Both the position numbers and the translations under genes were made by a program. This document shows, in pieces, positions 7,473 to 42,650 of a DNA stretch of 64,000 bases. The notes beneath the pieces are model-generated. The model saw only the letters and a program-made list of their open reading frames with translations. It made no database searches and was not told the DNA's origin. Location of the stretch: assembly GCA_018820765.1 (NCBI GenBank), contig JAHJNN010000017.1:62001-126000 (forward strand), read 5' to 3'. The DNA comes from Gammaproteobacteria bacterium (lineage in GTDB: Bacteria > Pseudomonadota > Gammaproteobacteria > Burkholderiales > Thiobacillaceae). Numbering within the stretch: position 1 is the first letter of the stretch; each line of letters opens with the position of its first letter.

Positions 7473-8393
7473 ATGCATTTCTGGAAAAATAAAACGCCCA
7501 GCCACGAGCGGGCGGTGGACTGGTTCAAACAGAACATGGTGGCCGGCCAGGGCATCATCGTGCACTCGAAGCAGCCGGTGCCCTACCCCGAGGTGACGGG
7601 CTATTTCATTCCCACGCTATATAACTGGGGGGAGCAGGAACTGGCACGCACCTGCACGCGGTGGCTGATGTCGATCCAATTGCCGGATGGCGCCTTCCCG
7701 GCGCCCGACGGCGTGCCCTACACCTTCGATACCGCGCAAATCATGCGCGGGCTGTGCGCGGCGCTGGGAGATGTGGAAGGCGTGGAAGACTCGCTGCGCC
7801 GTGCCAGCGACTGGATGTTGACGCAGGTGGACGCAAGCGGCCGTCTGAAAACACCCTCGACCGAGCTGTGGAGCGACATTGCCAGCGACTTGATCCACAC
7901 CTACGCACTGCCACCGCTGGCCCAGGCGGGCAGGCTGCTGGGGGTGAAAGAATACGAAGACGCGGCGAATTTTGTGCTCGCGTACTACAAGCAGCAAGCT
8001 GGTCTGGTGCCCTTCAATCGCCTGTCGCACTTTCATGCCTACGCCATGGAAGCGCTTACCGAGATGGGTGAGTTCGATCTGGCACGCCGGGGCATGGCGG
8101 ACGTGGCACGCTGTCAGCGCCGAAACGGCAGCATTCCTGCCTATCCGGATGTCGACTGGGTATGTTCGACCGGCATGGCCCAGTATGCAATCGTCTGGTA
8201 CACGCTGGGCGAAAAGGATCGCGCCGATCGCGCGATTGCCTACCTGGAAAAAATCCAGAATGACTCCGGCGGCTTCTTCGGCAGCTACGGCAAGGGTGCG
8301 AAATACATCTCGGGCGGGGAGATCAGCTGGGGCGTGAAATATTTTCTCGATGCATGGCTGCTTAAACTCCGTGCGGAGGGCAAGCATGCTTAA
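7473..8393 (+). CDS. Alpha/alpha-toroid (prenyltransferase/squalene-cyclase-like fold) protein
   Basis: 306 residues with repeated helical-hairpin patterns typical of (alpha/alpha)6 toroid enzymes: PEVTGYFIPTLYNWGEQ (~34-50), RWLMSIQLPDGAFPAPDG (~62-79), FDTAQIMRGLCAALG (~84-98), RRASDWMLTQVDASGRL, and near the end KIQNDSGGFFGSYGKGAKY. The alternation of 'Q-x-x-DGAF' and 'DTAQIMRGL' strings is like that of the protein at 33612-34823. Proteins of this shape in EPS loci have no firm function; polysaccharide lyase/hydrolase or isoprenoid-binding roles are both possible. No signal peptide. The start is supported by AAGGGA about 8 bp upstream; the stop overlaps the next gene by 8 bp. Confidence 0.7.
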   Translation: MHFWKNKTPSHERAVDWFKQNMVAGQGIIVHSKQPVPYPEVTGYFIPTLYNWGEQELARTCTRWLMSIQLPDGAFPAPDGVPYTFDTAQIMRGLCAALGDVEGVEDSLRRASDWMLTQVDASGRLKTPSTELWSDIASDLIHTYALPPLAQAGRLLGVKEYEDAANFVLAYYKQQAGLVPFNRLSHFHAYAMEALTEMGEFDLARRGMADVARCQRRNGSIPAYPDVDWVCSTGMAQYAIVWYTLGEKDRADRAIAYLEKIQNDSGGFFGSYGKGAKYISGGEISWGVKYFLDAWLLKLRAEGKHA

Positions 8394-9513
8394 GGTGTTG
8401 ACTGTTTTCGGCACCCGACCGGAGGCCATCAAGATGGCGCCGCTGATCGCCGAACTGGAACGCCATCCCGGCGTCATCGACAACCGCAACTGTCTGACCG
8501 GCCAGCACAAGGACATGGTCGCACCGCTGATCGAGCTGTTCGGCATCCGCGCGGATTACGAACTCGACCTGATGCGTGAGAACCAGACGCTCGAACACAT
8601 CACGACCACTGTGCTTGCCGAAGTCGGCCGTATCCTGCGCGAAGAGAAGTTCGATCTGCTTCTGGTGCAGGGTGACACGACGACCTCGATGGCGGCGGCG
8701 CTTGCGGCCTTCTATGCCGGCGTGAAGATCGGCCATGTCGAAGCTGGCCTGCGCACCTTCGACAAGCACCACCCCTACCCCGAGGAAGCCAACCGCAAAA
8801 TGATCGATGCCGTGGCCGATCTCTTCTTTGCGCACAGCAGCAAGGCGAAACAGCATCTGCTGAATGAAGGCATCGCCGAGTCGGCGATCGCTGTCACCGG
8901 CAACACGGTGATCGACGCGCTGCTCGACGTTTCCTCCCGACCTTTCGAGGTTGCGGGCTCGCCGCTCGAAGCGATTCCGTTCGACACGAAGCGCGTCGTG
9001 CTGGTCACCGCGCATCGGCGCGAAAGCTTCGGAGGACCGTTCGAGTCGATCTGCAAGGGACTGGCCGAACTCGCCCGCAAATATGCCGACGACATCGAGC
9101 TGGTCTACCCGGTTCACCGCAACCCCAACGTGCGCGCAGTGGTCGGCAAATACCTTGCCGATCTGCCGAATGTTCGGCTTCTCGACCCGCTCGACTACCT
9201 GCCGCTGGTGCAACTGATGAAGCGCGCGCATCTGGTCCTGACCGATTCCGGCGGCTTGCAGGAGGAAGCACCCAGCCTCGGCAAGCCCGTTCTGGTGATG
9301 CGCAAGGTCACCGAACGCCAGGAAGGCGTCGAGGCGGGCACCCTGAAACTGGTCGGCATGGACGCCGACGACATCGTGCGCGAGGCAAGCCGCCTGCTCG
9401 ACGACCCCGCCGCATACCAGGCGATGGCGACGCGCGCCAACCCCTACGGCGACGGCACCGCGAGCATCAAGATCGTGCAGAAGATTCTTGCCGACCTGGA
9501 GCCTGCGGGGTGA
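8386..9513 (+). CDS. wecB: UDP-N-acetylglucosamine 2-epimerase (non-hydrolysing), copy 1
   Basis: 375 residues. Converts UDP-GlcNAc to UDP-ManNAc in the cytosol. Family signatures: FGTRPEAIKMAPLI (residues 7-20), TGQHKDM, VQGDTTTSMAA, HVEAGLRTFDKHHPYPEEAN, TAHRRESFGGPF and LTDSGGLQEEAPSLGKPVLVMR. The acidic and His residues used in catalysis in the E. coli enzyme (in GDTTT, VEAGLRT, PEE-x-NR and AHRRE) all appear to be present. The ATG at 8386 is chosen over an in-frame ATG at 8350 because it has GGAGGG at 8376-8381 and begins the family sequence MLKVLTVFGTRPE. It overlaps the upstream stop, implying translational coupling. A second wecB is at 47507-48622. Confidence 0.93.
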   Translation: MLKVLTVFGTRPEAIKMAPLIAELERHPGVIDNRNCLTGQHKDMVAPLIELFGIRADYELDLMRENQTLEHITTTVLAEVGRILREEKFDLLLVQGDTTTSMAAALAAFYAGVKIGHVEAGLRTFDKHHPYPEEANRKMIDAVADLFFAHSSKAKQHLLNEGIAESAIAVTGNTVIDALLDVSSRPFEVAGSPLEAIPFDTKRVVLVTAHRRESFGGPFESICKGLAELARKYADDIELVYPVHRNPNVRAVVGKYLADLPNVRLLDPLDYLPLVQLMKRAHLVLTDSGGLQEEAPSLGKPVLVMRKVTERQEGVEAGTLKLVGMDADDIVREASRLLDDPAAYQAMATRANPYGDGTASIKIVQKILADLEPAG

Positions 9514-10499
9514 GCCAGCCGCTGGTCAGTGTCGTTCTGCCCACCTACAGGAGGGCACATCTGCTTGCGCAGGCGATCCGCAGTGTGCTGGCGCAGACCT
9601 ACGCCAATCTGGAACTGATCGTTGTGGATGACAACTCGCCCGACGAAACCGCTGCCGTGGTGCAGTCCTTCGATGACCCGCGCATCCGCTATCTCAAGAA
9701 CAACCCGAACCTGAAGCTGCCGCGCGCCCTCAACCGGGGGTTCTCGGAAGCACGCGGCGACTACCTCACCTGGACCTCGGACGACAATCTGCTGGGCCCG
9801 CGAGCCATCGAAAAAATGGTCGGCATGCTGGCCACGCGCGACTGTGATTTTGTCTACGCCGACTGCTGGATGTTTTCCGAACAGGACGCCGATGGCCGTC
9901 CGCTCGCGCCGCACCACGACCGCTTGCCCGACACGCTGCAACTGAAACAGGGCAATCACATCGGTGCGTGTTTTCTTTACACCCGCAGGCTGTATGAAAG
10001 CGTTGGCGACTACGATCCCGAGTTGTTTCTGGTCGAGGATTACGACTACTTCCTGCGCGCGGCCCGCCAGTTCCGGTTTTGCCACCTGGGCGAGCCGCTG
10101 TATTACTTCCGCCGCGACGACGCGACGCTGTACTGCTCGCGCTTCCCCGAGGTCAAGGCCGCCGACGTTTTGGTCCGTTTCAAAAACGGCATGATCGATG
10201 CCGACGAGGCTGCCGGCATCCTCGCCGGCCTGCTGCTTCAGCACCCCGGCCAGCTTGCCGATGCCCGCCTGCGGCTAGCACTGACGATCCGCGAGCGCCT
10301 GTCGTACCGAATCGGCGCGTGGCTGGCGCGGCACGGCAATGTGCGGCTAAAACGAAAGCTCGCCGAAGATATTGCCCCGCTATTTGCCCGCTACCGGGCG
10401 GGTACCGCAACTTTCGGCGACACCCGAACCACGCTACTCGATCGTATCCAGCAACATGGCGTGCTCGCCTACGTCACCCCTGGAACCCGAGTCCCATGA
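9510..10499 (+). CDS. Glycosyltransferase family 2 protein
   Basis: 329 residues. The GTG start overlaps the wecB stop (GTGA). A GT-A domain fills the first ~230 residues: PLVSVVLPTYRRAHLLAQAI, VVDDNSPDETAAVVQSF, RYLKNNPNLKLPRALNRGF and TSDDNLLGPRAI, where the acidic pair takes the place of the metal-binding DXD motif; then FLVEDYDYFLRAARQF, the ED-x-D acceptor/base region. No membrane segments, so it is a soluble or peripheral transferase. The donor sugar is unknown. The last ~80 residues are Arg- and Leu-rich helices. Its stop overlaps the sulfotransferase start (ATGA). Confidence 0.88.
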   Translation: MSQPLVSVVLPTYRRAHLLAQAIRSVLAQTYANLELIVVDDNSPDETAAVVQSFDDPRIRYLKNNPNLKLPRALNRGFSEARGDYLTWTSDDNLLGPRAIEKMVGMLATRDCDFVYADCWMFSEQDADGRPLAPHHDRLPDTLQLKQGNHIGACFLYTRRLYESVGDYDPELFLVEDYDYFLRAARQFRFCHLGEPLYYFRRDDATLYCSRFPEVKAADVLVRFKNGMIDADEAAGILAGLLLQHPGQLADARLRLALTIRERLSYRIGAWLARHGNVRLKRKLAEDIAPLFARYRAGTATFGDTRTTLLDRIQQHGVLAYVTPGTRVP

Positions 10500-11416
10500 T
10501 CCGCACCATCCAGACCGCACTGAAAGGCCCCGCACAGGCGCGCGCCCAGCACCGCCACCTCACCAAAGACTACACGGGCATTGCCAGCGGACTTGCGGCG
10601 CTGGAAGCCAGCTATTCCCCACCTGAAGACGACACCGTCGCGCCGATTTTTCTGCTTTCGGCGGGATGGCGCTCGGGCTCGACGCTCCTCCAACGTCTTG
10701 TGATGTCGGACAAACGCGTACTGATCTGGGGGGAACCCTACGACGAATGCGGTCCGATCCAAGCGATGGCCGATACGCTCAAGGCCTTCCGCCCCGGCTG
10801 GCCACCCGCCGACTACTACTATGATGGCACTCCGCCGGGGCAGCTGACCGGCAGCTGGGTTGCCAACCTTTTTCCCCCAGTGGATGCGCTCTGGCGCGCA
10901 CACCGGGCCTTTCATGACACCCTGTTCGATGCGCCGGCAACCCAGGCCGGCGCCGCCCGCTGGGGCATCAAGGAGGTGCGCCTCGGAATCGAACATGCGC
11001 GTTACCTTCGCTGGCTTTACCCCCGGGCGCGTTTCGTCATGCTGTATCGCCATCCGCTCGACGCCTACCGCTCTTATTGCCGCTACGGACGCAGCTGGTA
11101 TGACGTCTTCCCAGACCGCCCGGTATTCACGCCAACCGCGTTCGGCACGCACTGGCGGAGGTTGATGGAAGGGTATCTGGAGGGCGCCGAAACGATCGGC
11201 GCGATGCTGCTGCGCTATGAGGACCTGATCGGCCCCACGCCGCCACTTGACGCGCTGGATGCCTACCTCGGCATTCAGACCGACCACGCCGTTCTGGCAA
11301 AGAAAGTCGGCAGTTCCGAGCGTGGCGGGGAAAAGGCTCATGTCAACGCGCTTGAACGCTGGCTGCTGAAGCGTGCTGCAGGCCCGATTGCTGCCAAACT
11401 TGGATACGATTGGTAA
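10496..11416 (+). CDS. PAPS-dependent sulfotransferase family protein (1 of 3)
   Basis: 306 residues. FLLSAGWRSGSTLLQRLV (~52-69) is the P-loop-like 5'-phosphosulfate binding loop of sulfotransferases, and RFVMLYRHPLDAYRSY (~174-189) is the 3'-phosphate binding strand with the conserved R-x-P-x-D/S-Y pattern. It would transfer sulfate from PAPS to a glycan or other carrier in the cytosol. I place the start at ATG 10496 because it overlaps the upstream stop (ATGA) and family homology begins soon after; the open frame extends back to 10079 inside the GT2 gene but that part is a shadow. It sits between two GT2 genes, supporting glycan sulfation. Confidence 0.83.
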   Translation: MIRTIQTALKGPAQARAQHRHLTKDYTGIASGLAALEASYSPPEDDTVAPIFLLSAGWRSGSTLLQRLVMSDKRVLIWGEPYDECGPIQAMADTLKAFRPGWPPADYYYDGTPPGQLTGSWVANLFPPVDALWRAHRAFHDTLFDAPATQAGAARWGIKEVRLGIEHARYLRWLYPRARFVMLYRHPLDAYRSYCRYGRSWYDVFPDRPVFTPTAFGTHWRRLMEGYLEGAETIGAMLLRYEDLIGPTPPLDALDAYLGIQTDHAVLAKKVGSSERGGEKAHVNALERWLLKRAAGPIAAKLGYDW

Positions 11417-11420
11417 CGCG

Positions 11421-12350
11421 ATGGACGCCAGCATCATTGTCTGCACATACAGCCGCGCCGAGTCACTGCGGGACACCTTGCGCGCGCTACGTGCGCTGGA
11501 GGCGCCGGCAAGCCTTCTTTGGGAAGTCATCGTTGTCGACAACAATTCCGGCGATCACACACGAGCAGTTGTTGAAGATGCACAACGCGACTGGCCTTTG
11601 TTGCGGTACGAGTTCGAAACCCAACAGGGCCTGTCCCATGCTCGCAATCACGGCATTGCCTGCGCGCGCGGCGAGGTGCTGCTGTTCACCGATGATGACG
11701 TTCTGCCCGAGCCGGACTGGCTGGAGGCCACGCTGGAAGGTTTGGCCAAGTATCAGGCCGATGCCTGCGGGGGCTATATCGCGCCGATTTGGGAATCGCC
11801 GCCGCCAGCATGGCTGACGGAGCGGTTCTACGGCTTTCTGGCAGTGCGCACCGATCGCAGCGATGATTACATGATTGCCAAACCGAGCCAGGCACCTTTC
11901 GGCGCAAACATGGCCTTCAGAAAAAGCGTGTTCGATCGGGTTGGGCCCTTTGATGCCCGCCGCGGCCGCAAGGGCAAGGTTCTTGCGGGCGGCGAAGACA
12001 TCGAGCTTTTCGAACGCGTCCTGGCAGCAGGGTTGCGGGCGGTATTTCTCGGCCAGACTCGCGTTCACCACAAAGTGGAAGCCTATCGATGTACCAAGCG
12101 TTACCTGCGGCGCTGGCGCTACCAGAGCAGCCGGAATCTTGCCATCACCAAGGGTATCACCGGAGATCGTCGACTCCTCAATATCCCCCTCTATCTCTTT
12201 CCGCAGTTGGCCCGCGCAACCGTTCGCACAGTGACAGGTCATTTCACCCTGCCGGCCGACGAGGCCTTTTTTCGTGAAATGCTGGTTTGTCACTTCCTGG
12301 GAACGATGCAGGGGCTGTTCACCGCTCGGGGCAAGGCCGGGCATGGCTAA
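11421..12350 (+). CDS. Glycosyltransferase family 2 protein
   Basis: 309 residues. GT-A motifs: MDASIIVCTYSRAESLRDTL (1-20), VIVVDNNSGDHTRAVV, TQQGLSHARNHGIACARGEV, FTDDDVLPEPDWL (the D-D-D metal site) and CGGYIAPIWE. Further on, GGEDIELFERVLAAGLR is the acceptor-side ED motif. No transmembrane helices. The ATG at 11421 begins the family sequence directly and lies 4 bp after the upstream stop; an in-frame ATG at 11373 would add a stretch overlapping the sulfotransferase. The 3' end overlaps the fusion gene by 8 bp. Confidence 0.88.
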   Translation: MDASIIVCTYSRAESLRDTLRALRALEAPASLLWEVIVVDNNSGDHTRAVVEDAQRDWPLLRYEFETQQGLSHARNHGIACARGEVLLFTDDDVLPEPDWLEATLEGLAKYQADACGGYIAPIWESPPPAWLTERFYGFLAVRTDRSDDYMIAKPSQAPFGANMAFRKSVFDRVGPFDARRGRKGKVLAGGEDIELFERVLAAGLRAVFLGQTRVHHKVEAYRCTKRYLRRWRYQSSRNLAITKGITGDRRLLNIPLYLFPQLARATVRTVTGHFTLPADEAFFREMLVCHFLGTMQGLFTARGKAGHG

Positions 12351-15300
12351 ACCGCGTTTCACCCTCATAGCCACCGTCCGCAACGAAGTCGGCACGATTC
12401 GTGATTTCGTTGAATCTCTGTTGTTACAGATTCGGCCACCTGACGAAATCCTCATCGTCGACGGCGCCAGCAACGACGGCACCCTCGAAGTTCTCGAAAA
12501 CTACGCGGAACGTGGTGTTCTCCGCGTGATCTCACAGCCCTGCAACATTGCGGAAGGACGCAACCTGGGCATTGCCGCTGCGACCGGAACCCACCTTGCC
12601 GTGACTGATGCGGGTTGTCGGGTGGAGCCGGATTGGCTGGCACAGATCGAACGCTGCTTTGAAGCCGACTGCCAACCCGACGTGGTTGCAGGCAACTTTA
12701 GTTTCGACACGCACGCCCCATTTGAAGAGGCGGTGGTTTACGCCACCTTCCAGCCCAATCGAGATCAGACCGAAACCGCGCGTTATTACCCTTCAAGCCG
12801 TTCGGTCGCCTTCACCAAGATCGCCTGGGAAAAAGCCGGAGGCTATCCGGAGTGGCTATATGCCGCGGAAGACACCTTGTTCAATATCCGCATGCGACAG
12901 CTGGGGATGCGTTTCGTGTTCTGCCGAGACGCCATCGTGCGCTGGCGCCCGCGAGAAACTTGGCGCGCGCTCGCCAAACAACGGATCAACTTTTCACGAG
13001 GCAACTCGCGGGTGGGCATCGGCACGACCGGCTACCTGACTAATCTCCAGGTGCATGGCCTGTTCCTGTCGTTGCTTCTGGGCAGCCTGTGGTTCATGCC
13101 CTTGCTGGCCATCGCACTTTCCGTGGCCCTCTGGCACGTTTACCGGCACTTGTGGGCGCAGGCCCGCAGAACCACCGCCGCCAAGGGCTGGGGGATGCGC
13201 CTGCGCGTCCTGGCAGTGATGGAGTTCGTACGCATCGTCAATCTATACGGCTTTTTGCGTGGACGCTGGGATCGTTTGTCCGACCCGTCCTACCTCACCC
13301 GTCAGATCGACTATATGGGGGTGGCGTCGGTAGATGACCTCGATCCGACCGATGCACCTAGCACCTATCGCAGAAAGCAGCTGCAACTCCCCCCGGACCG
13401 CGGCATGCTAGGCGTTGAGGCCCTGGCCTTGCTCACCGGTTCCTGCGGTCTCATCGCCTGGTTCGCCGCCGGTGATGCACGATGGGCCGGCATCCTGCCC
13501 GCGATGGGCGTGGCAGGCTTGGGGGCAGCAGCCCTGCTCACCAAATCGCTGCTCGATTTTTCCCAGACCGGGCCGCGCATGCGCGATGAAGTACTCACCC
13601 ATTACCGGCGCTACACCTTGTTTGCGCTGGCACGCCTGACAGCCTGGGCGTTCGCGCTGATGCTGTTCACTGGCGGCGCGGGGGTATTGCTGTACTTCAT
13701 GCTCAACACGGTGCTCGGTGCGACGTGGTCGGCAGGTCTGGCCTTCATCGCCGCCATCCTGGGCGTGCTGGGCGCGTTCTCACTGCAATTCATCCGCCAA
13801 TTGCGCTTCAATCCCGGCTTGCTGGTGGCATCGATGCATTACCGCATGAGCCGGCTGTACCGGCTGTGGCAATGGATGACCCCAGCCCGAATTGAGGGCC
13901 TACAGTGGGGGGCAATGGGCCTGGCTGGGTTGCTGTTTGCGACCGCCACTTGGCAACTGGCCGTAGAAAACCGTGTCGGCGACCTGATGGCGCTGTGGGC
14001 AGCCACGCTATTTCTTGCCGGAACGATCGTCTGGACGGGCTGGCAGCCGCAGCCACGCGCGCCGCGCAAACAGCCGACGCGCGCAGCCGATGCGCCGCCC
14101 AACATCCTGATGATCGGCTCCGACACGCTACGCGCCGACCGCCTCGGCGCGCTGGGCTACCACCGCGCGCTGACGCCGAACATCGATGTGCTGGGCGCGG
14201 CCGGCGCCCTGTTTGCCAACTGTTATGTACCGTGCGCGCGTACCGCGCCCAGCCTGATTTCGATGTTGACCGGCACCTGGCCGCACACCCATGGCATCCG
14301 CGACAACTTTGTTGCCGACGAGGATACGCGCCTGAAAGTCGATGCCCTGCCCACGCTGCTGAAACAGGCGGGCTATCGCACAGCCGCGCTCTCGGACTGG
14401 TGCGGTGGCGACATGGGCAAGTTTTCCTTCGGTTTTGATTACACCGACCTGCCGGAAGACCAGTGGAACCTGAAATATCTGATCCGCCAGGGCCCCAAGG
14501 ACCTGCGCCTGTATGTGTCTCTGTTCACCCACAACCGGCTGGGACGGCTGATGCTGCCCGAGCTGTACTATCTGGGCGGAGTGCCGCTGACGCAGCCCTT
14601 GGGCAAGCGCGCGCGGCGGCTGGTGTCGCGCCTGGCGGAAAGCCCGCAACCATTCTTTCTCAACGTGTTTTATTCCACCACCCACCCGCCGTTTGCTTCG
14701 GAATGGCCCTGGTACACACGTTTTGCCGACCCAGCCTATGCGGGTGAATCCAAGTTCGCGATGGCACGCCTGACCGACCCGTTCGACATCATCCGACGCC
14801 AGGGCGCACCCAAAGAGGAATTCGACCTCGACCAGATCATCGATCTGTACGACGGCTGCGTAGCGGAGTTCGACGATGAAGTGGGGAAGATGCTGGCACA
14901 CCTTGAAATCTGCGGGCTGGCGGACAACACGGTCATCGTCGTCTATTCGGACCATGGCATGGAGTTTTTCGAACACGACACATGGGGCCAGGGCAATTCG
15001 GCTGTCGGCGAAGCCAGTCCGCGCATTCCGCTGGTGATCCGCGATCCGCGCCTGCCTGCCAGAGGAAAAATCGATGATGTCGTCCGCACAATCGATCTGG
15101 CCCCGACGCTTCTGGAACTATGCGGCCATCCCACAAGCAATATGGACGGCGTCTCGCTTGTCAGTTGCATGGGGCCCGACCGTGCCTGCCCGGAACTCGA
15201 TGCTTTCAACGAAACCGGCATCTGGATAGCCGATATTCCGGGACTGCCGGAAACGCATCTTCGCTATCCCAACCTGCTGGAACTGATCGAGGTCCCGAAT

Positions 15301-15561
15301 CGTGGCAGTGGCACGCTCGCCATCAAGCCCGAATACTGCGAAACCATCCTCACCGCCAAGGATCGTATGATCCGGCGTGGACGGTGGAAGCTGGTATATC
15401 AGCCGCTGAAGAGTGGTTACGTCCTGCGGTTATACGATCTGGAGGCCGATTCCGCCTGTCAGCGGGATGTGGCCTCTGACAATCCAGGAATCCAGGCTGC
15501 ACTTTGGCAACAACTTCAGCGTTTCATTGATCCTCCCCAAGCGCATCATTCAAATGCATAA
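12343..15561 (+). CDS. Fusion: GT2 + polytopic membrane region + sulfatase-like (alkaline phosphatase superfamily) domain
   Basis: 1072 residues with three parts. Residues 1-~230: a GT2 domain (FTLIATVRNEVGTIRDFV, LIVDGASNDGTLEVLENYA, VTDAGCRVEPDWLAQIE, AAEDTLFNIRMRQLG). Residues ~235-565: about seven or eight hydrophobic segments in two groups (~235-265 and ~355-565). Residues ~587-1060: a sulfatase-fold domain with metal ligands in IGSDTLRADRLGALGY (Asp594) and VYSDHGMEFFEH (Asp870, His871), and the active-site loop CARTAPSLISMLTG. In that loop Thr634 falls at the position where sulfatases have the Cys or Ser that becomes formylglycine, and the C-x-P-S-R pattern is missing, so this may be a phospho- or phosphoglycerol-type transferase or phosphodiesterase. 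Start: ATG 12343 overlaps the upstream stop; the longer frame from 12274 is less likely. Confidence 0.85.
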   Translation: MAKPRFTLIATVRNEVGTIRDFVESLLLQIRPPDEILIVDGASNDGTLEVLENYAERGVLRVISQPCNIAEGRNLGIAAATGTHLAVTDAGCRVEPDWLAQIERCFEADCQPDVVAGNFSFDTHAPFEEAVVYATFQPNRDQTETARYYPSSRSVAFTKIAWEKAGGYPEWLYAAEDTLFNIRMRQLGMRFVFCRDAIVRWRPRETWRALAKQRINFSRGNSRVGIGTTGYLTNLQVHGLFLSLLLGSLWFMPLLAIALSVALWHVYRHLWAQARRTTAAKGWGMRLRVLAVMEFVRIVNLYGFLRGRWDRLSDPSYLTRQIDYMGVASVDDLDPTDAPSTYRRKQLQLPPDRGMLGVEALALLTGSCGLIAWFAAGDARWAGILPAMGVAGLGAAALLTKSLLDFSQTGPRMRDEVLTHYRRYTLFALARLTAWAFALMLFTGGAGVLLYFMLNTVLGATWSAGLAFIAAILGVLGAFSLQFIRQLRFNPGLLVASMHYRMSRLYRLWQWMTPARIEGLQWGAMGLAGLLFATATWQLAVENRVGDLMALWAATLFLAGTIVWTGWQPQPRAPRKQPTRAADAPPNILMIGSDTLRADRLGALGYHRALTPNIDVLGAAGALFANCYVPCARTAPSLISMLTGTWPHTHGIRDNFVADEDTRLKVDALPTLLKQAGYRTAALSDWCGGDMGKFSFGFDYTDLPEDQWNLKYLIRQGPKDLRLYVSLFTHNRLGRLMLPELYYLGGVPLTQPLGKRARRLVSRLAESPQPFFLNVFYSTTHPPFASEWPWYTRFADPAYAGESKFAMARLTDPFDIIRRQGAPKEEFDLDQIIDLYDGCVAEFDDEVGKMLAHLEICGLADNTVIVVYSDHGMEFFEHDTWGQGNSAVGEASPRIPLVIRDPRLPARGKIDDVVRTIDLAPTLLELCGHPTSNMDGVSLVSCMGPDRACPELDAFNETGIWIADIPGLPETHLRYPNLLELIEVPNRGSGTLAIKPEYCETILTAKDRMIRRGRWKLVYQPLKSGYVLRLYDLEADSACQRDVASDNPGIQAALWQQLQRFIDPPQAHHSNA

Positions 15562-16648
15562 AACGAAAGTCTGCTTTTTCACCAACAGCGCGGGGGACTG
15601 GGGCGGAGCCAGTCGCGTTCTCTATACTAATCTATGGCAGTTGGACACCACCAAGCTCGACCCTGTCTTGATACTGCCCGGCGAAGGGCCCATCGAGGCC
15701 GAGTTGGATGCGCGCGGGTTCCGTTACGAAGTGTGGTCGCCTTTTACCGAACCCGGATCTCCTGGCGCCTATCTGCGCGCTTTCTGGAAAGCATGGCGCT
15801 TTTTCCGGCGAGAACGCGTAGACGTGGTCCATGTCAATGGATCGAACTTCTGGCGCCCGGCTGAACTGCTCGCTGCGAAACTCGCTGGCATTCCTATCCT
15901 CGCGCACTATCACGTCATCAATCACCATCCTTCGCCAGCAATGCGCTGGTGCCGCGCGGCGATCGCAGTATCACGTTACACCGCCGAACAGTCTGGACCG
16001 CAAGGGCTATCCAAGCCGGTAATCTATAACCCGATCAATCTTGCGCGCTTCGATGCGGGCCATAGCCTGCGTGATGAGTTGGCTATCGCCGAGTCTGACC
16101 TGGTTGTGGCCTTCCTGGGCCAGGTCCGGGAGATCAAGGGTGTGGCCGATTTCATTGCCATGGCGCGCACCATCGAGGCACCCCACGCGCGTTTTCTGAT
16201 TGCCGGAGAATGCCGCGATCCCGCTAGATTCCCCGGTAGCTATAGCGCGAGCGATTTGACACGATTGGCAGGCGGCGACACCCGTATCCGCTACATCGGC
16301 TATAGAAAGGACGTCGAAAATGTCTACCATACGGCGGATGTCATCGTCGTGCCTTCGCGCTGGCAGGAACCATTGGGGCTTATCAATCTGGAAGCCGGGG
16401 CCTGCCGCAAACCGGTGGTAGCGACGCGAGTGGGCGGCATCCCCGAGGTGATGGAAGACGGTGTAAATGGCTTTTTGGTAGAACCTGGCGACGTGGGTGG
16501 ACTTGCGGCGCGAGTGACACAACTCTTCGCCGATCCCGCGCTGCGCGCCCGCCTCGGTGAAGCGGGGCGCGCCAGGATTGAACAGAACTTTGCTACGCGC
16601 CCTGTACGCGAATTTGAGACGCTGTTATTGGGTTTTAAAAATCATTAA
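15554..16648 (+). CDS. Glycosyltransferase family 4 protein
   Basis: 364 residues. N-terminal half starts KTKVCFFTNSAGDWGGASRV with the GT-B acceptor glycine loop; the C-terminal donor half has AFLGQVREIKGVADFI (~180), SRWQEPLGLINLEAGACRKP (~269-288) with the E-x7-E pattern, then GGIPEVMEDGVNGFLVEPGD. The ATG at 15554 overlaps the stop of the fusion gene by 8 bp. It is the last plus-strand gene of this operon; the next gene is convergent, 48 bp away. Sugar specificity is unknown. Confidence 0.88.
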   Translation: MHKTKVCFFTNSAGDWGGASRVLYTNLWQLDTTKLDPVLILPGEGPIEAELDARGFRYEVWSPFTEPGSPGAYLRAFWKAWRFFRRERVDVVHVNGSNFWRPAELLAAKLAGIPILAHYHVINHHPSPAMRWCRAAIAVSRYTAEQSGPQGLSKPVIYNPINLARFDAGHSLRDELAIAESDLVVAFLGQVREIKGVADFIAMARTIEAPHARFLIAGECRDPARFPGSYSASDLTRLAGGDTRIRYIGYRKDVENVYHTADVIVVPSRWQEPLGLINLEAGACRKPVVATRVGGIPEVMEDGVNGFLVEPGDVGGLAARVTQLFADPALRARLGEAGRARIEQNFATRPVREFETLLLGFKNH

Positions 16649-29755: not shown

Positions 29756-31342
29756 TCAGAACTGGAAATAGAGGAATTCGGAGACGCGGTTCATGGCAAG
29801 CACGCCCACGGCAGCAGTCACTCCCCCGGCTACCGCCCACCTCAGGCTGGGCTTCCAGCTGAGAGCAGGATAAAGCCGGTGCATCGCCCGAATTTCGCTC
29901 TTCGCTTCTCCATGACGAGGGCTTATCCCGGGTTCCATTCCGTGCATGATCTGCTGGGTATTCGGCATGGCCAACACGGCCACCATCAATAGAAGAATCC
30001 ATAGCCATGTGAAAATGAACTGGCTCCCTCCGCCCAGATAGCTCGTGAAGCCAAGATCGACCAGGATGGGCCACGTGCTCCCCAGCCTTGCTGCGACGGC
30101 ATTCGGGAGGGCGATTCCGTTCCACCCTGCCATGCTGTGCAGCATCGCAAGCGCCGCGTCGAAACTGGCGGCGCGAAAGAATACCCAGCCGATCACGACC
30201 GCGGCGAACGTCATTGACCACGCGAGCAGTTTCGCCAGACGCCTTGGCAGGAGTGGCCCGCGCCAGAACCTGTTTACAAAATATATCCAGGCGTGATTGA
30301 TGCACAGGTAAAGACCGTGCAAACCTCCCCAAACAAGAAAAGTCCAGCCGGCCCCATGCCACAGCCCGCCGAGCAGCATGGTAACCATCAGGTTGATGTA
30401 TCGTCGAACCGTTCCTTTGCGATTGCCGCCCAAGGCGAAATAAAGGTAATCACGCAAAAAACGCGAGAGCGTCATGTGCCAGCGGCGCCAGAACTCGACA
30501 ATGTTGGTTGCCTTGTAGGGCGAGTGAAAATTGAGCGGCAGCTTCACTCCGAACATGCGCGAAAGCCCGATTGCCATGTCGGAATAACCCGAGAAGTCGA
30601 AATAGAGTTGGAAGGTGTAGGCCAGTGCACCGCCCCATGCCTCAAATAAAGTCAGGGTCTGCCCGACAGCAGCAGCGTCAAATACGGGGGTTGAGTATTG
30701 TGCAACGCCATCAGCAAGGACTGTCTTTTTGAAAAGCCCAATGATAAAGATCGTCAGGCCGACGGAAACATTCTCCCAGTGCGGGCGGTAGGTCTGTGCC
30801 TGCGCGAACTGCGGCATCATCTCTTTGTGATGCAGCACCGGCCCCGCGATGAGATGGGGGAAATAGGTCACGAAGAGTCCGTAATGGATGAAGTTGCGTT
30901 CCTTCACCTCGCCCCGGTATGCATCGACCAGGAAGGCGATCTGCGTGAAGGTGAAAAAAGAAATTCCGAGTGGCAGGATGACATCTTCCAGATGCCACCC
31001 TGCCCCTAACAATTCATTGGTGTTGGTCAGGAAGAAGTTTGCATATTTGTAATAGGCCAGGAGGGCAAGATTTCCGCTGACAGCGGCAATCAGCATGTAC
31101 TTTGCCCGGGCCAGCCTGCCACGATGATGTTCCCGGGAAATGGCCGAACCCATCGCAAAGTTGAACAGGATGGAACCGATCAGCAGGCTGACGTAAGCGG
31201 GATTCCACCAGCCATAGAAAAACAGTGATGCGGAAAACAGCCAGAGCGCGGCGAGGGAACGGCTGTAACGGCCGATGACGAAGAAGGCCGCGAAGGTGAC
31301 CGGAAAGTAGAAGAAAAGAAACTCGTATGAATTGAACAGCAT
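29756..31342 (-). CDS. MBOAT family O-acyltransferase (AlgI-like)
   Basis: 528 residues, polytopic with about ten to twelve hydrophobic segments from the first residues (MLFNSYEFLFFYFPVTFAAF). The MBOAT core is evident: GLSRMFGVKLPLNFHSPYKA, FWRRWHMTLSRFLRDYLYFA, and LLGGLWHGAGWTFLVWGGLH with the conserved His. It moves an acyl (commonly acetyl) group across the inner membrane for O-acylation of a secreted glycan. The downstream SGNH-like gene would complete the reaction. The start ATG is well placed before the first helix. Confidence 0.93.
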   Translation of the reverse strand: MLFNSYEFLFFYFPVTFAAFFVIGRYSRSLAALWLFSASLFFYGWWNPAYVSLLIGSILFNFAMGSAISREHHRGRLARAKYMLIAAVSGNLALLAYYKYANFFLTNTNELLGAGWHLEDVILPLGISFFTFTQIAFLVDAYRGEVKERNFIHYGLFVTYFPHLIAGPVLHHKEMMPQFAQAQTYRPHWENVSVGLTIFIIGLFKKTVLADGVAQYSTPVFDAAAVGQTLTLFEAWGGALAYTFQLYFDFSGYSDMAIGLSRMFGVKLPLNFHSPYKATNIVEFWRRWHMTLSRFLRDYLYFALGGNRKGTVRRYINLMVTMLLGGLWHGAGWTFLVWGGLHGLYLCINHAWIYFVNRFWRGPLLPRRLAKLLAWSMTFAAVVIGWVFFRAASFDAALAMLHSMAGWNGIALPNAVAARLGSTWPILVDLGFTSYLGGGSQFIFTWLWILLLMVAVLAMPNTQQIMHGMEPGISPRHGEAKSEIRAMHRLYPALSWKPSLRWAVAGGVTAAVGVLAMNRVSEFLYFQF

Positions 31343-32785: not shown

Positions 32786-33615
32786 GTGTTCTGTTCCTTG
32801 ACTGTTCCATTGGCAAACCAGTTGACTCTTCGCGGCAAGGCCATGCCCTTGAGCATGCCGGCAGCAAGCTGGGCGGCCAGCGCACGTTCATGAAGCAGGC
32901 CGCGGTCCTTGACCTGGTACAGGTGGCCCCTGCCCGGCTGCACCCTGCCAAGCTGTTCGCCCTGTGCAAGCCGTGCAACGGCTTCAGCGTAGACCTCGGC
33001 GCTATCCTGCACCGCACGCCAGAACAACACCAATTCGCTATCACCCTCGCACACTTCCGGACTAATGTGCGCGATCAGGCGGCCGGTGTCGATGCCGGCA
33101 TCGATGTAATGCAGGGTACAGCCGATTTTTTCCGGTTCGCCGTTGTAGAGCGCCCAGAAAGTGCAGTCGGCGCCACGGTATTCGGGCGACAGCCCGCCGT
33201 GCAGGTTGACGATGCCGAGGCGGCCTTCCTGCAGCAGTTCTCCGCGGATCAGCGAGGTACCGAACACGCAAATCAGGTCGGGCTGAAGGTCGCGCGCCAG
33301 CTTCACCACTTCGGGGTGATTGATGTGCGTGACTTCGCGCACCAGTTCGGGACGATCGAGCCGGGGTTCGCCATCCGGAAAAAAGAACTTCGCCTCGGGG
33401 TTGCCGGTGTAGCGGCGGCGGTCGCGCAGCCAGCGCCAGGCCTTGCGAAACAGATTGTCGGGGCGCAGTTTTTTCAGGGTCTTTTTCAGGTTCCACTCGC
33501 CGCCGGTTTCCTGCACGATGGCCAGCGCCTCGCCGGCGCGGCACAGGGCGTTGGCGACGTGCAGGTGGCGGGCGCTGCGCCCGCACAGGATCATGATCCG
33601 CAACCGGGTCATCAC
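32782..33615 (-). CDS. Formyltransferase family protein (sugar/EPS modifying)
   Basis: 277 residues. The formyl transfer core reads IVNLHGGLSPEYRGADCTFW at ~135-154 and GCTLHYIDAGIDTGRLI at ~165-181, supplying the conserved Asn137, His139 and Asp176 used with 10-formyl-tetrahydrofolate. In polysaccharide loci such enzymes formylate amino sugars (for example 4-amino-4,6-dideoxyhexoses); here the substrate is not known, and a related tRNA-Met formyltransferase role is unlikely because the tRNA-binding C-terminal domain is missing and the N-terminus is unusual. Both ends overlap neighbours by 4 bp, so translation is coupled. Confidence 0.87.
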   Translation of the reverse strand: MMTRLRIMILCGRSARHLHVANALCRAGEALAIVQETGGEWNLKKTLKKLRPDNLFRKAWRWLRDRRRYTGNPEAKFFFPDGEPRLDRPELVREVTHINHPEVVKLARDLQPDLICVFGTSLIRGELLQEGRLGIVNLHGGLSPEYRGADCTFWALYNGEPEKIGCTLHYIDAGIDTGRLIAHISPEVCEGDSELVLFWRAVQDSAEVYAEAVARLAQGEQLGRVQPGRGHLYQVKDRGLLHERALAAQLAAGMLKGMALPRRVNWFANGTVKEQNT

Positions 33616-34823
33616 GGCAACCCTTTGGCTACCGCCGGGATGGGCGGCACGGCCACATTGGCCATGTCCATGATCAGCGCATCGGCAAAGAATTTTGCCG
33701 CCCAGTTGGGGAATTCGAAGCGCGAATACGCACCCCAGATCGGCGCCGATCCGGGGATGGCGCCGCGCACGACGGGATCATTCTCTTCCAGCTGCTGGGT
33801 GCGCTTGACGTAGGCGATCGCCCGCCAGGCGGCATCGCGGTAGCTTTTGTCCCCGCTGATCTGCGCCAGCCGCAGCCAGCACAGTGCCATTTGCGCGACA
33901 CCCGTGACGCAGGCGTAGCTTGCCGTCGGCGTCCAGCCGTCGTCGTAGGTTCCGGCGAGCCAGCCATCGCTGCGCTGTTTTTCCATCAGACCACGGGCGG
34001 CGATTTCGGCAGCCCGGAGATAACGCTCCTCACCCAGCAGCACGGCCACTTCGATGAAGCCGCGGATGGCGTAGGCGATGGTGTGGGTGAAGGGATGCCT
34101 GCCCGGCACAAAGGCATTGGTGGCGAACCAGCCGCTTGGCGTCTGCTGGCTGAGCGCCCAGTCGAGGTTGCGCCGCGCCGCCGCGATGAATTCGGGTTCG
34201 TTGGCCACCACGCCCGTGGCCGCGAGCGCCCAGATGGCCCGCGTGTTGTAGACGTGCGGCACGCCGTTGTGCTCGAACTTGCGATAGCAGCCGTCTTCAT
34301 CCTGCTGCGCCACCAGCCAGCGGCCGGCGCGCACGCCTGCTACGAGGCAGTCCTGTCGATCAAGCGACGTGTAGCCCGCCACCAGGCCATGCATGATCTG
34401 GCCCTGGTTGAAGATCACCGGGTGGCTGCCCGTCTCGCCAAAGTGCCCGGGAAATGCGCCATCTGCGGTTTGCAGCGAGAGTTCCCAGTCGATCATTTTC
34501 TGGGCGCGCTCGATGAGTTCTGGGCGGTCGAGGTATTCCGCAGCGGCAATGAAGGTCTCGATGATGTAGCCGGTGGTCTCGGGGTAGCCGGGCAGCCAGC
34601 CGTCCTCGAAGCTCCAGCCGGCGGCGACCCCGCCCGCATCTGGCTTGTGCTTGCGTACGTCCTGCGCGCGGCACAGCCAGTCGATGGCGCCTCGCAAGTG
34701 AGTGCGGTTGTCCTGCTCGGGCTGGCGGGCCGTTCCGGCGATGTCCTGCATCACCAGGCGCAGATGGCGCCCTTGCCAGGGCTTGTATCGCAGAGGGAGC
34801 TGGATGAGGGATGACGGTTTCAT
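33612..34823 (-). CDS. Alpha/alpha-toroid (prenyltransferase/squalene-cyclase-like fold) protein, second copy
   Basis: 403 residues. Repeated hairpins include GWLPGYPETTGYIIETFIAA (~75-94), WELSLQTADGAFPGHFGETG, IFNQGQIMHGLVAGYTSLD, VYNTRAIWALAATGVV, LDWALSQQTPSGWFATNAF and YDDGWTPTASYACVTGVAQM. These repeat a 'Q-x-x-DG-x-F ... GQ-x-x-x-GL' unit seen also in the protein at 7473-8393. The fold is that of glycoside lyases, terpene cyclases and prenyltransferases. No signal peptide. Its place between a CapK-like ligase and a formyltransferase inside the XrtA operon suggests a polymer-tailoring role. The exact activity is unknown. Confidence 0.72.
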   Translation of the reverse strand: MKPSSLIQLPLRYKPWQGRHLRLVMQDIAGTARQPEQDNRTHLRGAIDWLCRAQDVRKHKPDAGGVAAGWSFEDGWLPGYPETTGYIIETFIAAAEYLDRPELIERAQKMIDWELSLQTADGAFPGHFGETGSHPVIFNQGQIMHGLVAGYTSLDRQDCLVAGVRAGRWLVAQQDEDGCYRKFEHNGVPHVYNTRAIWALAATGVVANEPEFIAAARRNLDWALSQQTPSGWFATNAFVPGRHPFTHTIAYAIRGFIEVAVLLGEERYLRAAEIAARGLMEKQRSDGWLAGTYDDGWTPTASYACVTGVAQMALCWLRLAQISGDKSYRDAAWRAIAYVKRTQQLEENDPVVRGAIPGSAPIWGAYSRFEFPNWAAKFFADALIMDMANVAVPPIPAVAKGLP

Positions 34824-34847: not shown

Positions 34848-36236
34848 TCAGGCAGCAGCCTGCTTCAAGGTGTCGGCAAGGGGCACATGGCTCACCACGT
34901 AGCGATGCTTGCCGGATGCTTCGGGCGGAATGTCGTCCAGCAGGCGCAACTCCACTTCAAGCGCTTCGCCCAGACGTGCGTGCAGCCCGGCTACCACGGC
35001 ATGGCGGGCTGCCTCGTTCCAGTTGGCATCCGGCACGATCTGCACTTCCATGCGGTCGAGCGCGTGCTGAATGCACTTGAACTGGGCAATGCCGGGCACC
35101 GCGCGTAGCACATAAATCACGGCCAGCGCATGCATGACACGGCCATCGGCGGCGACGACAAAATCGGTCTGTCGCCCCGTCACTTCGGCAATGACATGCA
35201 AACCCTGCCCGCCGGCGGCGGGCTCGCTGGAAAGCCGCAGTACATCGCCGGTTCGATAACGGATGAAGGGCTGGGCCGCTGAAGTCAGGCCGGTGATCAC
35301 GGCCTCGCCCGCTTCGCCTGGCGCCACCGGCTGGCCGGCCTCGTCCAGCACCTCGACGATGTGGCTCTCGCTCATCAGCAGCATCTGTCCGCCCGGCGCC
35401 TCATGCGCGGTGAAACCGATGTCGCGGCTGCCGAATTCGTTCGCTACCGGCGCGCCGAATACTCGAGCGATGAGTTCGCGCTGGTGTGGGTAGAGCGGTT
35501 CGCCGGTCGTGCACACCACGCGCAGCTGCGGCAAACGCAGCGTGCGTTGCCGCGCCTCGGCATGCGCCGCCAGCAAAGCGGCACTGGAGGCGTATCCATA
35601 CAGGCATTGGGGCTGCCAAGCCTGCAACGCGTCAAGATAATCATCCATGCGCTCAGGCGACATGGCGAAGGCATTCAGCACCAGCTGGTTCACCAACCGG
35701 TCACGCAGGACCTTGACGCGGTCGGTCTTGTTCAGTTCAACCGGCGCGCCCCACAGATAAGCCTCGCGCTCGCCCGGCTCCACCCCCCACCAGCGCCGTG
35801 CGCGCATGCGGCCTGCTGCATCGGAGGCCTGGCGCTCGCGGCCGAAATAGAAGATGAGCGGCTCACCGCTGGACCCCCCCGTGGTGTACTGGAAGACCCG
35901 TCCCGGCACCCCGCGCCAGACGAGTTGCTCGACGTTGTCGCGGGCATCGCGCTTGTTCATCGTCGGCATGCGAGTCAGATCGGCCAGTGTCAACGCACCG
36001 GCCTTGGCAGCTTCATCCAATCCCGCAGTGCGCAACCGGTCTGCGTGCCAGGGGCTGTGCGCCAAGGCACTGGCCAGCAGCGTGTTCAGGCGCTGCGCCT
36101 GATAGGCCTCGATACCTTCCCGCGACAGCCACTGCGTACGCTCGAGTTCAGCGAGCATCGCAAAGGTTGGGCGTTGCATTGCCGCTTCCTGTGCACGATA
36201 GACGCTGCGGGCGAACCAGGCGGGGATCGTCATCAT
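34848..36236 (-). CDS. PaaK/CapK-like AMP-forming ligase (adenylate-forming)
   Basis: 462 residues. The ATP/AMP motif FQYTTGGSSGEPLIFYFGRE lies near residue 115; further motifs VCTTGEPLYPHQRELIARVF, NEFGSRDIGFTAHE and YRTGDVLRLSSEPA (A5-A7-like) are as in phenylacetate-CoA ligases and the CapK proteins of capsule loci, and the C-terminal small domain ends LDDIPPEASGKHRYVVSH with a likely Lys. It should adenylate a carboxylic acid, to make an acyl-CoA or transfer an acyl group onto a sugar. The usual XrtA-associated acyl-CoA ligase is not seen in the window, so this may fill that slot or act on its own. Start overlaps the upstream sulfotransferase by 4 bp. Confidence 0.83.
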   Translation of the reverse strand: MMTIPAWFARSVYRAQEAAMQRPTFAMLAELERTQWLSREGIEAYQAQRLNTLLASALAHSPWHADRLRTAGLDEAAKAGALTLADLTRMPTMNKRDARDNVEQLVWRGVPGRVFQYTTGGSSGEPLIFYFGRERQASDAAGRMRARRWWGVEPGEREAYLWGAPVELNKTDRVKVLRDRLVNQLVLNAFAMSPERMDDYLDALQAWQPQCLYGYASSAALLAAHAEARQRTLRLPQLRVVCTTGEPLYPHQRELIARVFGAPVANEFGSRDIGFTAHEAPGGQMLLMSESHIVEVLDEAGQPVAPGEAGEAVITGLTSAAQPFIRYRTGDVLRLSSEPAAGGQGLHVIAEVTGRQTDFVVAADGRVMHALAVIYVLRAVPGIAQFKCIQHALDRMEVQIVPDANWNEAARHAVVAGLHARLGEALEVELRLLDDIPPEASGKHRYVVSHVPLADTLKQAAA

Positions 36237-37078
36237 GACGCTATCCCCCGCTGCAAAGCTCTGAAGCGCGCCAGCAGTTCATCACACAGTGCTGAAACGG
36301 CAGGTGCGATGTCAGGCGGGCTGCGATGCTTGACTGAACGCGTGTGAATACGCCCGGCAACCCGTTGATTGAAACCCTGCAACCCGAGGAAGCCATATAC
36401 CGCTTCCACCTCGCGCTCGGGATGCTGCACCAGATCCTCATAGAACACGACGCGCACGCGGGAATCGGCAGCCAGCTGCTGCTCGAAAAACAGGGCATTG
36501 CGATAGAACCACATGACCGCCGCGCCCTCGGCCTCGCTGGCGTCCGGGTGGTACAGCGCAGCGAGCAACTCGCGCGTGGCTTCCGACATGCCGCGGCCGC
36601 GCCAGTCGCCTGCATCGCCCCGCGCCAGCCTGCTCCATTGCGGAACGAAATTGCCGAAGGACTTGATCGCAGAACTGGCGCTGTCGCGCCAGTCGCGCAC
36701 GACCCACACGGTTTTTGCTGGTCTGAAGGCATCCATCAGGTTCTTGATACGGTCGAGCTCGCACAGCGCCTTGATCACGAACACCGGCGCCGGGCAGTGC
36801 TGCGCCAGCTGCCGGATCACGGCCGAATCACGCATTTCATAGCGCTCGAACGCCCGCGGATCGGTTTCGTGGAACACCTGGGTCGCCGCACTGGCGTCCA
36901 GCACATCCATCAGCAGGTTGGTGCCGGAACGCTGCATGCCGGCAACGAATACATACTGCGCGACGGGACGCGGCCGCAAGCGCTGGCGCAAGGCTTTTCC
37001 CTGGCGCCAAATGGCATGGCGTATGCGCACCGGCAGGCTGCGCGCATCGTGGCCGGTAGCGGGCTTGGCGGGGCTCAT
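36233..37078 (-). CDS. Sulfotransferase family protein (3 of 3)
   Basis: 281 residues. YVFVAGMQRSGTNLLMDVLD (~42-61) is the PAPS-binding loop; KTVWVVRDWRDSASSAIKSF (~126-145) contains the 3'-phosphate binding R-D-x-R-D-x-A-S motif; VFYEDLVQHPEREVEAVYGF near residue 215 is the conserved 'YEDL-x-x-P' helix. The ATG at 37078 overlaps the stop of the GT4 gene (ATGA), and family homology starts after it; the open frame extends to 38179, but that part is a shadow of the GT4 gene. The acceptor is unknown. Confidence 0.82.
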   Translation of the reverse strand: MSPAKPATGHDARSLPVRIRHAIWRQGKALRQRLRPRPVAQYVFVAGMQRSGTNLLMDVLDASAATQVFHETDPRAFERYEMRDSAVIRQLAQHCPAPVFVIKALCELDRIKNLMDAFRPAKTVWVVRDWRDSASSAIKSFGNFVPQWSRLARGDAGDWRGRGMSEATRELLAALYHPDASEAEGAAVMWFYRNALFFEQQLAADSRVRVVFYEDLVQHPEREVEAVYGFLGLQGFNQRVAGRIHTRSVKHRSPPDIAPAVSALCDELLARFRALQRGIAS

Positions 37079-41531: not shown

Positions 41532-42650
41532 CTATCGTCCCAGCGTTTTTTCGTATACCCCAGCATAGGCCGCGGCCATGGCCGGTATGCTGAAGCGCTG
41601 CACCGCCTGCCGCCGTGCGGTTTCACCATGCTCGGCAATGCGCGCCGGCGTATCCAGGTAGAAAAGCAAGGCCTGTACCATCTCGGCCACATCGCCGGGC
41701 GTCACCAGCAGGCCGTTAACGCCGTCCTCCACCAGTTCGAGATTGCCGCCCACGGCGGTGGCGATCACCGGTAGCCCGCTCGCCAGCGCTTCGAGGATGG
41801 TATTGGAAATGCCCTCGTTTTTGGAGGGCAGGACGAATACGTCGAGCGCCTGCATGATCTCGGCAATGTCGTCGCGCGCGCCCGGAAACCAGGCCAGATG
41901 GGCGAGGCCGGCACCCTGCAGCAGTTCGAGGCAGGCCTCGCGCACGGGCCCGTCGCCGACGATGACCAACCGTGCGCGCTCGGCCCGCTCGGGCTGCTGC
42001 CGCATCAGTTGGATGAAGGCGCGCGTGAGCAGGGGGTAATCCTTGACCTCGACCATGCGCCCGACCGAACCGAACACGATGCTCTCGGGATGGGCGAACT
42101 CCGGCCGCGCCCCCGCGCGCGGCCGAAATTTCGTGCTGTCAACGCCGTTGTAGATCTGGTTCAGCTTGTGCGGCGGCACATGGATGACCTGGCGCAGCCA
42201 GGTTTCGAGATCGCGGCTCACGGCAATGTAGTTCGACACCAGGGGCCGCGCGGCGCGGCGCAGCAGGTTGTATTTCCAGTTGCGGCCGTAAAGATCGAAC
42301 ACGTCGCGCCCATGCTCGCCGTGCACGGTGGCGCGAATGCCGGCAGCGGCGGCCACGAACTGCGCTTCCAGCGCAGCCAGGTTGCGGGTGTGCACCAGAT
42401 CGGGCTTGAGACTGCGCAGCAGCTTCCATAGCCGCACCGCCCAGCCAAGGCCGTGCCCGGGCGCCCGGTGCAGCGCGTGGAAATCGACCCGCTGCGCGGT
42501 GATCCGGTGGCGGAAACCGCTGTAGTCGGTGAGCGCCACCACGGTGTGGCGATAGCGCTCCGGCGGCAGAGTGTTGAACAGGTTGACCATGCCGTTTTCC
42601 ATGCCGCCGGTGTCGAAGCGGTGGACGATGTGCACGATGTGCGCGGTCAC
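41532..42650 (-). CDS. Exosortase A-associated sugar transferase (TIGR03088 type GT4)
   Basis: 372 residues from a GTG start that overlaps the exosortase stop (GTGA on the minus strand at 42650-42647). Motifs: AHIVHIVHRFDTGGMENGMV (the G-G-M-E-N glycine loop), ATVHGEHGRDVFDLYGRNW, IYNGVDSTKFRPRAGARPEF, VFGSVGRMVEVKDYPLLTRA, LPSKNEGISNTILEALASGL and TAVGGNLELVEDGVNGLLV. The length and opening match the XrtA-associated family. The frame is open further upstream to 43841 inside the exosortase gene, but that is a shadow. Confidence 0.92.
   Translation of the reverse strand: MTAHIVHIVHRFDTGGMENGMVNLFNTLPPERYRHTVVALTDYSGFRHRITAQRVDFHALHRAPGHGLGWAVRLWKLLRSLKPDLVHTRNLAALEAQFVAAAAGIRATVHGEHGRDVFDLYGRNWKYNLLRRAARPLVSNYIAVSRDLETWLRQVIHVPPHKLNQIYNGVDSTKFRPRAGARPEFAHPESIVFGSVGRMVEVKDYPLLTRAFIQLMRQQPERAERARLVIVGDGPVREACLELLQGAGLAHLAWFPGARDDIAEIMQALDVFVLPSKNEGISNTILEALASGLPVIATAVGGNLELVEDGVNGLLVTPGDVAEMVQALLFYLDTPARIAEHGETARRQAVQRFSIPAMAAAYAGVYEKTLGR

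Follow-up and report, generated by a model that had tools for sequence, protein, structure and literature searches.

A glycosyltransferase-membrane-sulfatase-fold fusion protein with exchangeable glycosyltransferase heads in exosortase-A/PEP-CTERM exopolysaccharide clusters

By analogy, the closest functional precedent for the protein described here is a pair of archaeal sulfatase-fold sulfotransferases. In Halobacterium salinarum, Agl30 and Agl31 (VNG1056C and VNG1057C) are needed to sulfate an N-linked tetrasaccharide, and with them Hfx. volcanii gains sulfation; as described in the available part of the report (PMC11980604), one of the two is membrane-associated, Agl31 is cytosolic, and the authors reason that both act on the assembled glycan. 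For membrane proteins of the alkaline phosphatase (AP) superfamily with a Thr nucleophile, the comparison is YejM, as presented in the available part of PMC7576196. Here we describe a 1072-residue protein that joins a family 2 glycosyltransferase (GT2), a membrane domain and an AP-superfamily domain. It is encoded within a stretch of 64,000 nucleotides (the window) from a Gammaproteobacteria bacterium of the Thiobacillaceae (assembly GCA_018820765.1, contig JAHJNN010000017.1, positions 62,001 to 126,000).

The reading frame is uninterrupted from the ATG at 12343 to the stop at 15561. A Pfam search matched Glycos_transf_2 to residues 8-122 (E 1.6e-18, 67.6 bits against a cut-off of 23.3) and Sulfatase (PF00884) to residues 586-928 (E 1.7e-43, 149.5 bits). 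An AlphaFold2 model, made with 67 family rows as the alignment, had a mean pLDDT of 90.2 and a pTM of 0.79. The family rows came from 93 candidate references, reduced to 73 by removal of near-duplicates, from which most were taken by hand; with L037 and two GT-only stretches added there were 67 rows, 65 of which contain the AP domain. The model predicts six helices in the membrane domain (353-375, 379-404, 415-458, 464-489, 514-541 and 545-566) and three behind the GT domain (228-247, 253-278 and 283-313), so that GT-associated helices reach to about residue 313, beyond the head proper (GT2a). The GT part also contains a hydrophobic stretch around residues 240-258. Together, domain search and model bear out the first-pass annotation, which from the sequence alone had proposed a GT2-membrane-AP-superfamily fusion with seven or eight membrane helices; six module helices plus the stretch at 240-258 fit that number. 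In an alignment of nine homologues of the head, Asp89, Glu176 and Asp177 are invariant: the ED motif of GT2 enzymes, Glu176-Asp177, is kept in 9/9, and the DXD position has Asp89 in 9/9, with the motif letters DAG or DGG. The membrane domain gave 117 matches in the PDB at E<=10 and none at E<=0.001; the best, VIA (Z 6.4), scores no higher than helical folds do by chance.

The GT head is an exchangeable partner of a conserved membrane/AP module. A genome collection yielded 126 relatives of the module, of which we kept the best 80. Five of these loci are cut by contig ends; in 65 of the 75 uncut loci, a GT2 is fused to the module (from about residue 349), and the remaining 10 are unfused. The window's head accounts for only four of the fusions, while 61 carry a second GT2 type (GT2b), close to the reference head in 48 and distant in 13. 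An extra 20 loci from a class sample, some of which repeat genomes of the first set, comprised 13 unfused modules, six with the second GT2 type and one with the window's head. The four loci with the window-type fusion, L036-L039, and the 8-nt overlap of the fusion gene with its neighbor on each side contradict an assembly artefact as its source, a possibility that the first-pass annotation had left standing. That annotation also knew of no description of the fusion. The component parts are known, and we found no paper on this fusion or on the exchange of its heads among the matches listed, judged by titles and abstract openings; the fusion is not a one-off, as the 65 fused loci and the 61 with another GT2 make clear. 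The available main text of the 2006 PEP-CTERM/EpsH paper (PMC1569441) uses the word sulfatase 0 times.

The exchange is visible at the DNA level. Among the best 80 of the 126 relatives, the nearest module by identity is that of Thiobacillus denitrificans RG (L040), which is 89.1% identical to the window over 13387-15407 and whose head has no blastn match. The DNA match of L042, L046 and L064 also begins at 13387, and that of L068 at 13375. L068, L046 and L064 match both the gene upstream of the fusion gene and the module downstream, with no match to the head in between. The upstream GT2 in L068 and others was considered as a window-type head and rejected, since it is a different GT2, of the type of the gene that starts at 11373.

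On a tree of 88 modules (95 rows kept once short module matches were left out, 88 once near-identical rows were dropped), explaining the window-type head takes four changes, of which starred branches force at least three; for the unfused state the numbers are again four and at least three. These changes may be gains or losses, and the tree was built quickly, has SH-aLRT as its only support measure and contains several long branches. Among the 23 unfused loci, a free gene of head type b occurs in 12 and one of the window's head type in three, and eight have neither; this count covers the sequenced stretch around each locus, and the flanks are short in 13 of the 23. The unfused module of L146 (G019) is immediately preceded by a gene 39% identical to the window's head. 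At E<=1e-40, the GT2a head was found only in its own genome among 300 genomes of the order (even draw). Matches were present in 539 records of a plasmid collection; none of them covered 80% of the query, which means that the collection gave no complete membrane-AP module.

Judged by its residues, the AP domain is not a sulfatase, though its predicted fold is of the sulfatase/phosphonate-hydrolase type. In alignments to solved sulfatases, Thr634, part of the motif RTAPSL (residues 633-638), falls on the Cys that becomes formylglycine. The 65 module homologues all keep Thr634, Asp594, Asp870, His871, His781 and Glu877, and a separate alignment of 78 rows has Thr634 in 78/78. Thr634 is the likely nucleophile, with Asp594, Asp870 and His871 as presumed metal ligands; the first-pass annotation had assigned the same roles and called the metal-binding residues intact. 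It had also considered Cys627 and Cys631 in place of Thr634. Conservation argues against either Cys as the nucleophile, as each is absent from some rows (present in 62/65 and 58/65, respectively). The features expected of S1 sulfatases are replaced: Thr stands in 65/65 rows where a Cys or Ser would be converted to formylglycine; the position of the CxPSR Arg holds Leu in 60, Met in three and Ile in two of the 65; the Lys and His of GKWH align with Asp685 and Cys/Ala687; and the Lys after the DHG motif corresponds to Gln883 (in one alignment only). Identity as an arylsulfatase, choline sulfatase or PehA was rejected, with NCBIfam scores all far under the curated cut-offs.

The closest fold is 6hr5 (Z 38.1, root-mean-square deviation [rmsd] 2.5, 354 residues aligned), and the phosphonate monoester hydrolase (PMH) 4uph also matches (Z 35.5, rmsd 3.5, 400 aligned); Z ranged from 38.1 to 32.4 among the 50 entries listed for the AP domain. 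The structure matches listed for the AP or membrane domain do not include LtaS, EptA or YejM, an absence that excludes nothing. Asp594, Arg597, Asp599, Thr634, His781, Asp870, His871 and Glu877 are shared by a haloarchaeal Thr-type relative of the AP domain, whose gene lies in a glycan cluster together with aglF and glycosyltransferase genes. The window's AP domain scores 119 bits against this relative and 37 bits against an LtaS-like protein of its own genome. LtaS, the model chosen in the first-pass annotation, is thus less apt than S1 sulfatases and PMHs, which are nearer in both sequence and fold. A second family also has a Thr at a similar position, in the motif ARTFPAW. It is found in same-genus genomes (L139:1542-3719, + strand; L142:834-2960, - strand) as proteins of about 710-726 amino acids with membrane helices, and its charge pattern favors an N-terminus inside.

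The module is associated with exosortase-A/PEP-CTERM exopolysaccharide clusters. The window's cluster has markers of this system over cut-off: the TIGR03097 O-ligase, the TIGR03108 amidotransferase and the exosortase-A/PEP-CTERM glycosyltransferases TIGR03088 and TIGR04063. Across 369 genomes of the class, the module was present in 21 (E<=1e-60) and TIGR03097 in 63 (E<=1e-50). TIGR03097 occurred in 19 of the 21 module genomes (G186 and G412 have the module without the marker) and in 44 of the 348 others (Fisher p 3e-14, which ignores relatedness among the genomes). In the 19 genomes with both, module and marker are 1-21 kb apart in 11 and 50 and 158 kb apart in two; in the other six, they are on separate contigs.

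The side of the membrane on which the AP domain lies bears on what it could do. GT2 enzymes like this one use nucleotide sugars, and the GT is expected in the cytoplasm. With a cytoplasmic GT, six module helices would return the AP domain to the GT's side. The GT2b-headed L055 has no hydrophobic stretch before these six helices. In 10 of 17 unfused rows, the chosen start codon lies within 15 residues of the second module helix, a start consistent with five helices and an outside N-terminus; the remaining unfused rows have longer N-terminal tails. Candidatus Nitrotoga sp. 1052 (L069:8904-13268) encodes a triple fusion of 1455 amino acids, stop to stop, in which GT2 and membrane/AP parts are followed in one open reading frame (ORF) by a Glyphos_transf domain (PF04464, E 6.8e-13). 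We detected no hydrophobic helix before this domain, as no 19-residue stretch there exceeds a hydropathy of 1.2. Known Glyphos_transf members are cytoplasmic and use CDP-activated donors; with such a domain following the AP domain and no helix separating the two, the AP domain would share the GT's side of the membrane. Among the loci compared by blastp, only L069 and L097, where a Glyphos_transf gene lies 353 bp downstream of the module, had this family. It was found in 0/6 genomes around G444, whose kinship to Nitrotoga is a guess, making this result uninformative.

Charge points weakly in the same direction. In a first count, Lys and Arg were more numerous in loops 402-429 and 485-520 in 61/65 rows, a comparison of 64 with 18 columns; per residue, their density was 0.145 on these two long loops against 0.107, and higher on the long loops in 48/65. 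Of the 13 membrane-domain residues that hardly vary, 10 fall on the two long loops, which span 65 columns, and none on the three short loops with their 18; given these lengths, this is little evidence. A home-made topology score placed the AP domain inside in 8/10 unfused and 5/5 fused rows but gave outside as first choice in only 1/5 controls assumed to be outside, and it carries no weight. We infer that the AP domain probably faces the cytoplasm. The first-pass annotation had envisaged an enzyme that adds a sugar and then, on the far side of the membrane, a phospho-group. The pairing of two activities in glycan synthesis is supported; the far side is doubtful given the helix count and L069.

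We tentatively favor, at somewhat below an even chance, an enzyme with two activities that takes part in glycan assembly in the exosortase-A/PEP-CTERM exopolysaccharide pathway and has both of its active domains facing the cytoplasm. The GT2 head would use a nucleotide sugar to add a sugar to a lipid-linked glycan, and the membrane domain would retain the product, still on its lipid, at the inner leaflet. Thr634 of the AP domain, whose metal would be bound by Asp594, Asp870 and His871, would accept a donor's sulfo or phospho group, which the domain would then pass on to the glycan. With head swaps, the sugar would vary between lineages while the decorating module stayed constant. Phospho transfer from Thr is chemically easier than sulfo transfer. 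The Glyphos_transf partner hints at phospho transfer, and Agl30/Agl31 would be a precedent for sulfo transfer; we prefer neither. It is possible, though well short of probable, that the protein represents a new bacterial enzyme class: cytoplasm-facing, membrane-bound Thr sulfo- or phosphotransferases of the AP superfamily that act on lipid-linked glycans and have interchangeable GT heads.

Several observations weigh against this cytoplasmic assignment, and most of them bear on an LtaS/EptA-like alternative, in which an AP domain in the periplasm would load an exported glycan with phosphoethanolamine or phosphoglycerol taken from a phospholipid, in line with the proposal of the first-pass annotation. 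When charge was recounted on length-matched helix ends, inside Lys and Arg were more numerous in 34/65 rows, equal in 12 and fewer in 19, while five membrane AP-family controls were all clearly biased for their expected orientation. This weak recount lowers our confidence in the favored explanation and in the new-class reading and raises it in the LtaS/EptA-like alternative. The stretch at 240-258 of the window's head, if it crossed the membrane once, would make seven helices and put the AP domain outside. We take it to be paired or interfacial, because heads without this stretch are joined to modules as much as 89% identical to the window's. Cys839 and Cys1039 are lost together in three of the four rows that lose either, and Cys627 and Cys631 in three of seven; such paired loss could reflect disulfides and a periplasmic AP domain. 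The Glyphos_transf fusion is a single case, as L097 has an adjacent gene only, and a Glyphos_transf link in these two loci would also hint at a glycerol-phosphate theme. The Thr nucleophile and metal residues resemble those of LtaS, EptA and YejM (in the available part of PMC7576196). Set against a periplasmic lipid-dependent transferase are the even number of module helices, NCBIfam scores far under cut-off (25.2 against 970 for LtaS, 19.2 against 404 for CptA), and, in L069, a domain of cytoplasmic kind behind the AP domain. We consider this alternative unlikely.

A cytoplasm-facing transferase must also be weighed against hydrolysis. An AP-type phosphodiesterase or phosphatase could trim the glycan or recycle the lipid carrier after the GT step: the nearest named families and folds (choline sulfatase, PMH) are hydrolases, and the NPP family shows that Thr-type hydrolases exist in the AP superfamily. 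The module is, however, partnered with GTs in synthesis clusters, the catalytic Lys and His of sulfatases are replaced, and the sulfatase-fold proteins tested from one glycan cluster are reported as transferases in the available part of PMC11980604. A hydrolase seems improbable to us. Loss of the sulfatase signature would also fit an AP domain without catalysis that merely tethers or gates the GT, and some authors judge YejM to be no enzyme (available part of PMC7576196). Because the presumed metal and nucleophile positions are invariant in 65/65 rows, we regard a regulatory domain of this sort as very improbable.

Table 1. Features of the fusion gene and its neighbors (positions in the window)
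Feature	Position	Strand	Basis or remark
GT2-membrane-AP-superfamily fusion protein, 1072 amino acids	12343..15561	+	ORF, Pfam, AlphaFold2
GT2 head (GT2a), residues 1-230	12343..13032	+	Pfam PF00535/PF13641, alignment of 9 homologues
Junction at residue 349	13387..13389	+	DNA similarity to other-headed relatives begins here
Membrane domain, residues 353-566, six helices	13399..14040	+	alignment, AlphaFold2
AP-superfamily (sulfatase/PMH-type) domain, residues 586-1072	14098..15558	+	Pfam, fold comparison
Asp594 codon, presumed metal ligand	14122..14124	+	65/65 homologues
Thr634 codon, presumed nucleophile	14242..14244	+	invariant in homologues, aligned to formylglycine Cys
Asp870-His871 codons, presumed metal ligands	14950..14955	+	65/65 homologues
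WecB-type epimerase, GT2, Sulfotransfer_3 family gene	8350..11416	+	same overlapping gene run as fusion gene
Upstream GT2 gene	11373..12350	+	overlaps fusion gene by 8 nt
Downstream family 4 glycosyltransferase (GT4) gene	15554..16648	+	overlaps fusion gene by 8 nt

Other genes of the window were also noted. A 769-amino-acid protein (41535-43841, - strand) has an XrtA-type GT4 (TIGR03088) in residues 400-767, with all Pfam matches (E<=0.001) after residue 411. A 648-amino-acid protein (36236-38179, - strand) has its best sulfotransferase matches in residues 410-605, with PF13469 in two stretches; the Pfam search found no further family in it. Weak similarity to the squalene-hopene cyclase C-terminus occurs at 7473-8393 (+ strand, 31.7 bits) and 33615-34823 (- strand, 24.2 bits); the latter score is below cut-off, and that protein also matches GH127 (31.4 bits). 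The cluster includes an MBOAT/DltB-like O-acyltransferase (29756-31342, - strand), and in L106 an MBOAT gene lies directly 3′ of an unfused module.

For studies of how exosortase-A/PEP-CTERM clusters make polysaccharide, the fusion offers a concrete starting point. If our reading is correct, some "sulfatases" of bacterial exopolysaccharide clusters would be biosynthetic transferases on the inner side of the membrane, one decorating engine would serve many types of polysaccharide, and swapping GT heads while the module is conserved would give slime polysaccharides a direct and testable way to diversify. An inner-side biosynthetic role would also parallel the report on the two archaeal proteins.

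By description, the window protein resembles Agl30 and Agl31 in being a sulfatase-fold AP-superfamily protein of a glycan-assembly cluster; the reported substrate for sulfation by those two is a glycan built on a lipid carrier. They differ in being archaeal, in having at most one predicted membrane helix, and in that no GT fusion is described for them in the available part of the report (PMC11980604). With LtaS, EptA and YejM, the protein shares membrane helices followed by an AP domain with a Thr nucleophile, and alignment places the Thr and Asp/Asp-His set of the LtaS/EptA type in 65/65 rows; it differs in an AP domain that is sulfatase-type by sequence, in its GT2 head and possibly in its orientation. 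S1 sulfatases and PMHs (PF00884) have the same fold as the window's AP domain, which differs from them in carrying Thr for Cys/Ser, in lacking the CxPSR Arg and in its replaced GKWH Lys and His; unlike them, the window protein is embedded in the membrane and fused to a GT2. Finally, like the GT2 glycosyltransferases of exopolysaccharide clusters, the head has a GT2 domain over the Pfam cut-off; it differs from them in being fused to an AP module and exchanged between lineages.

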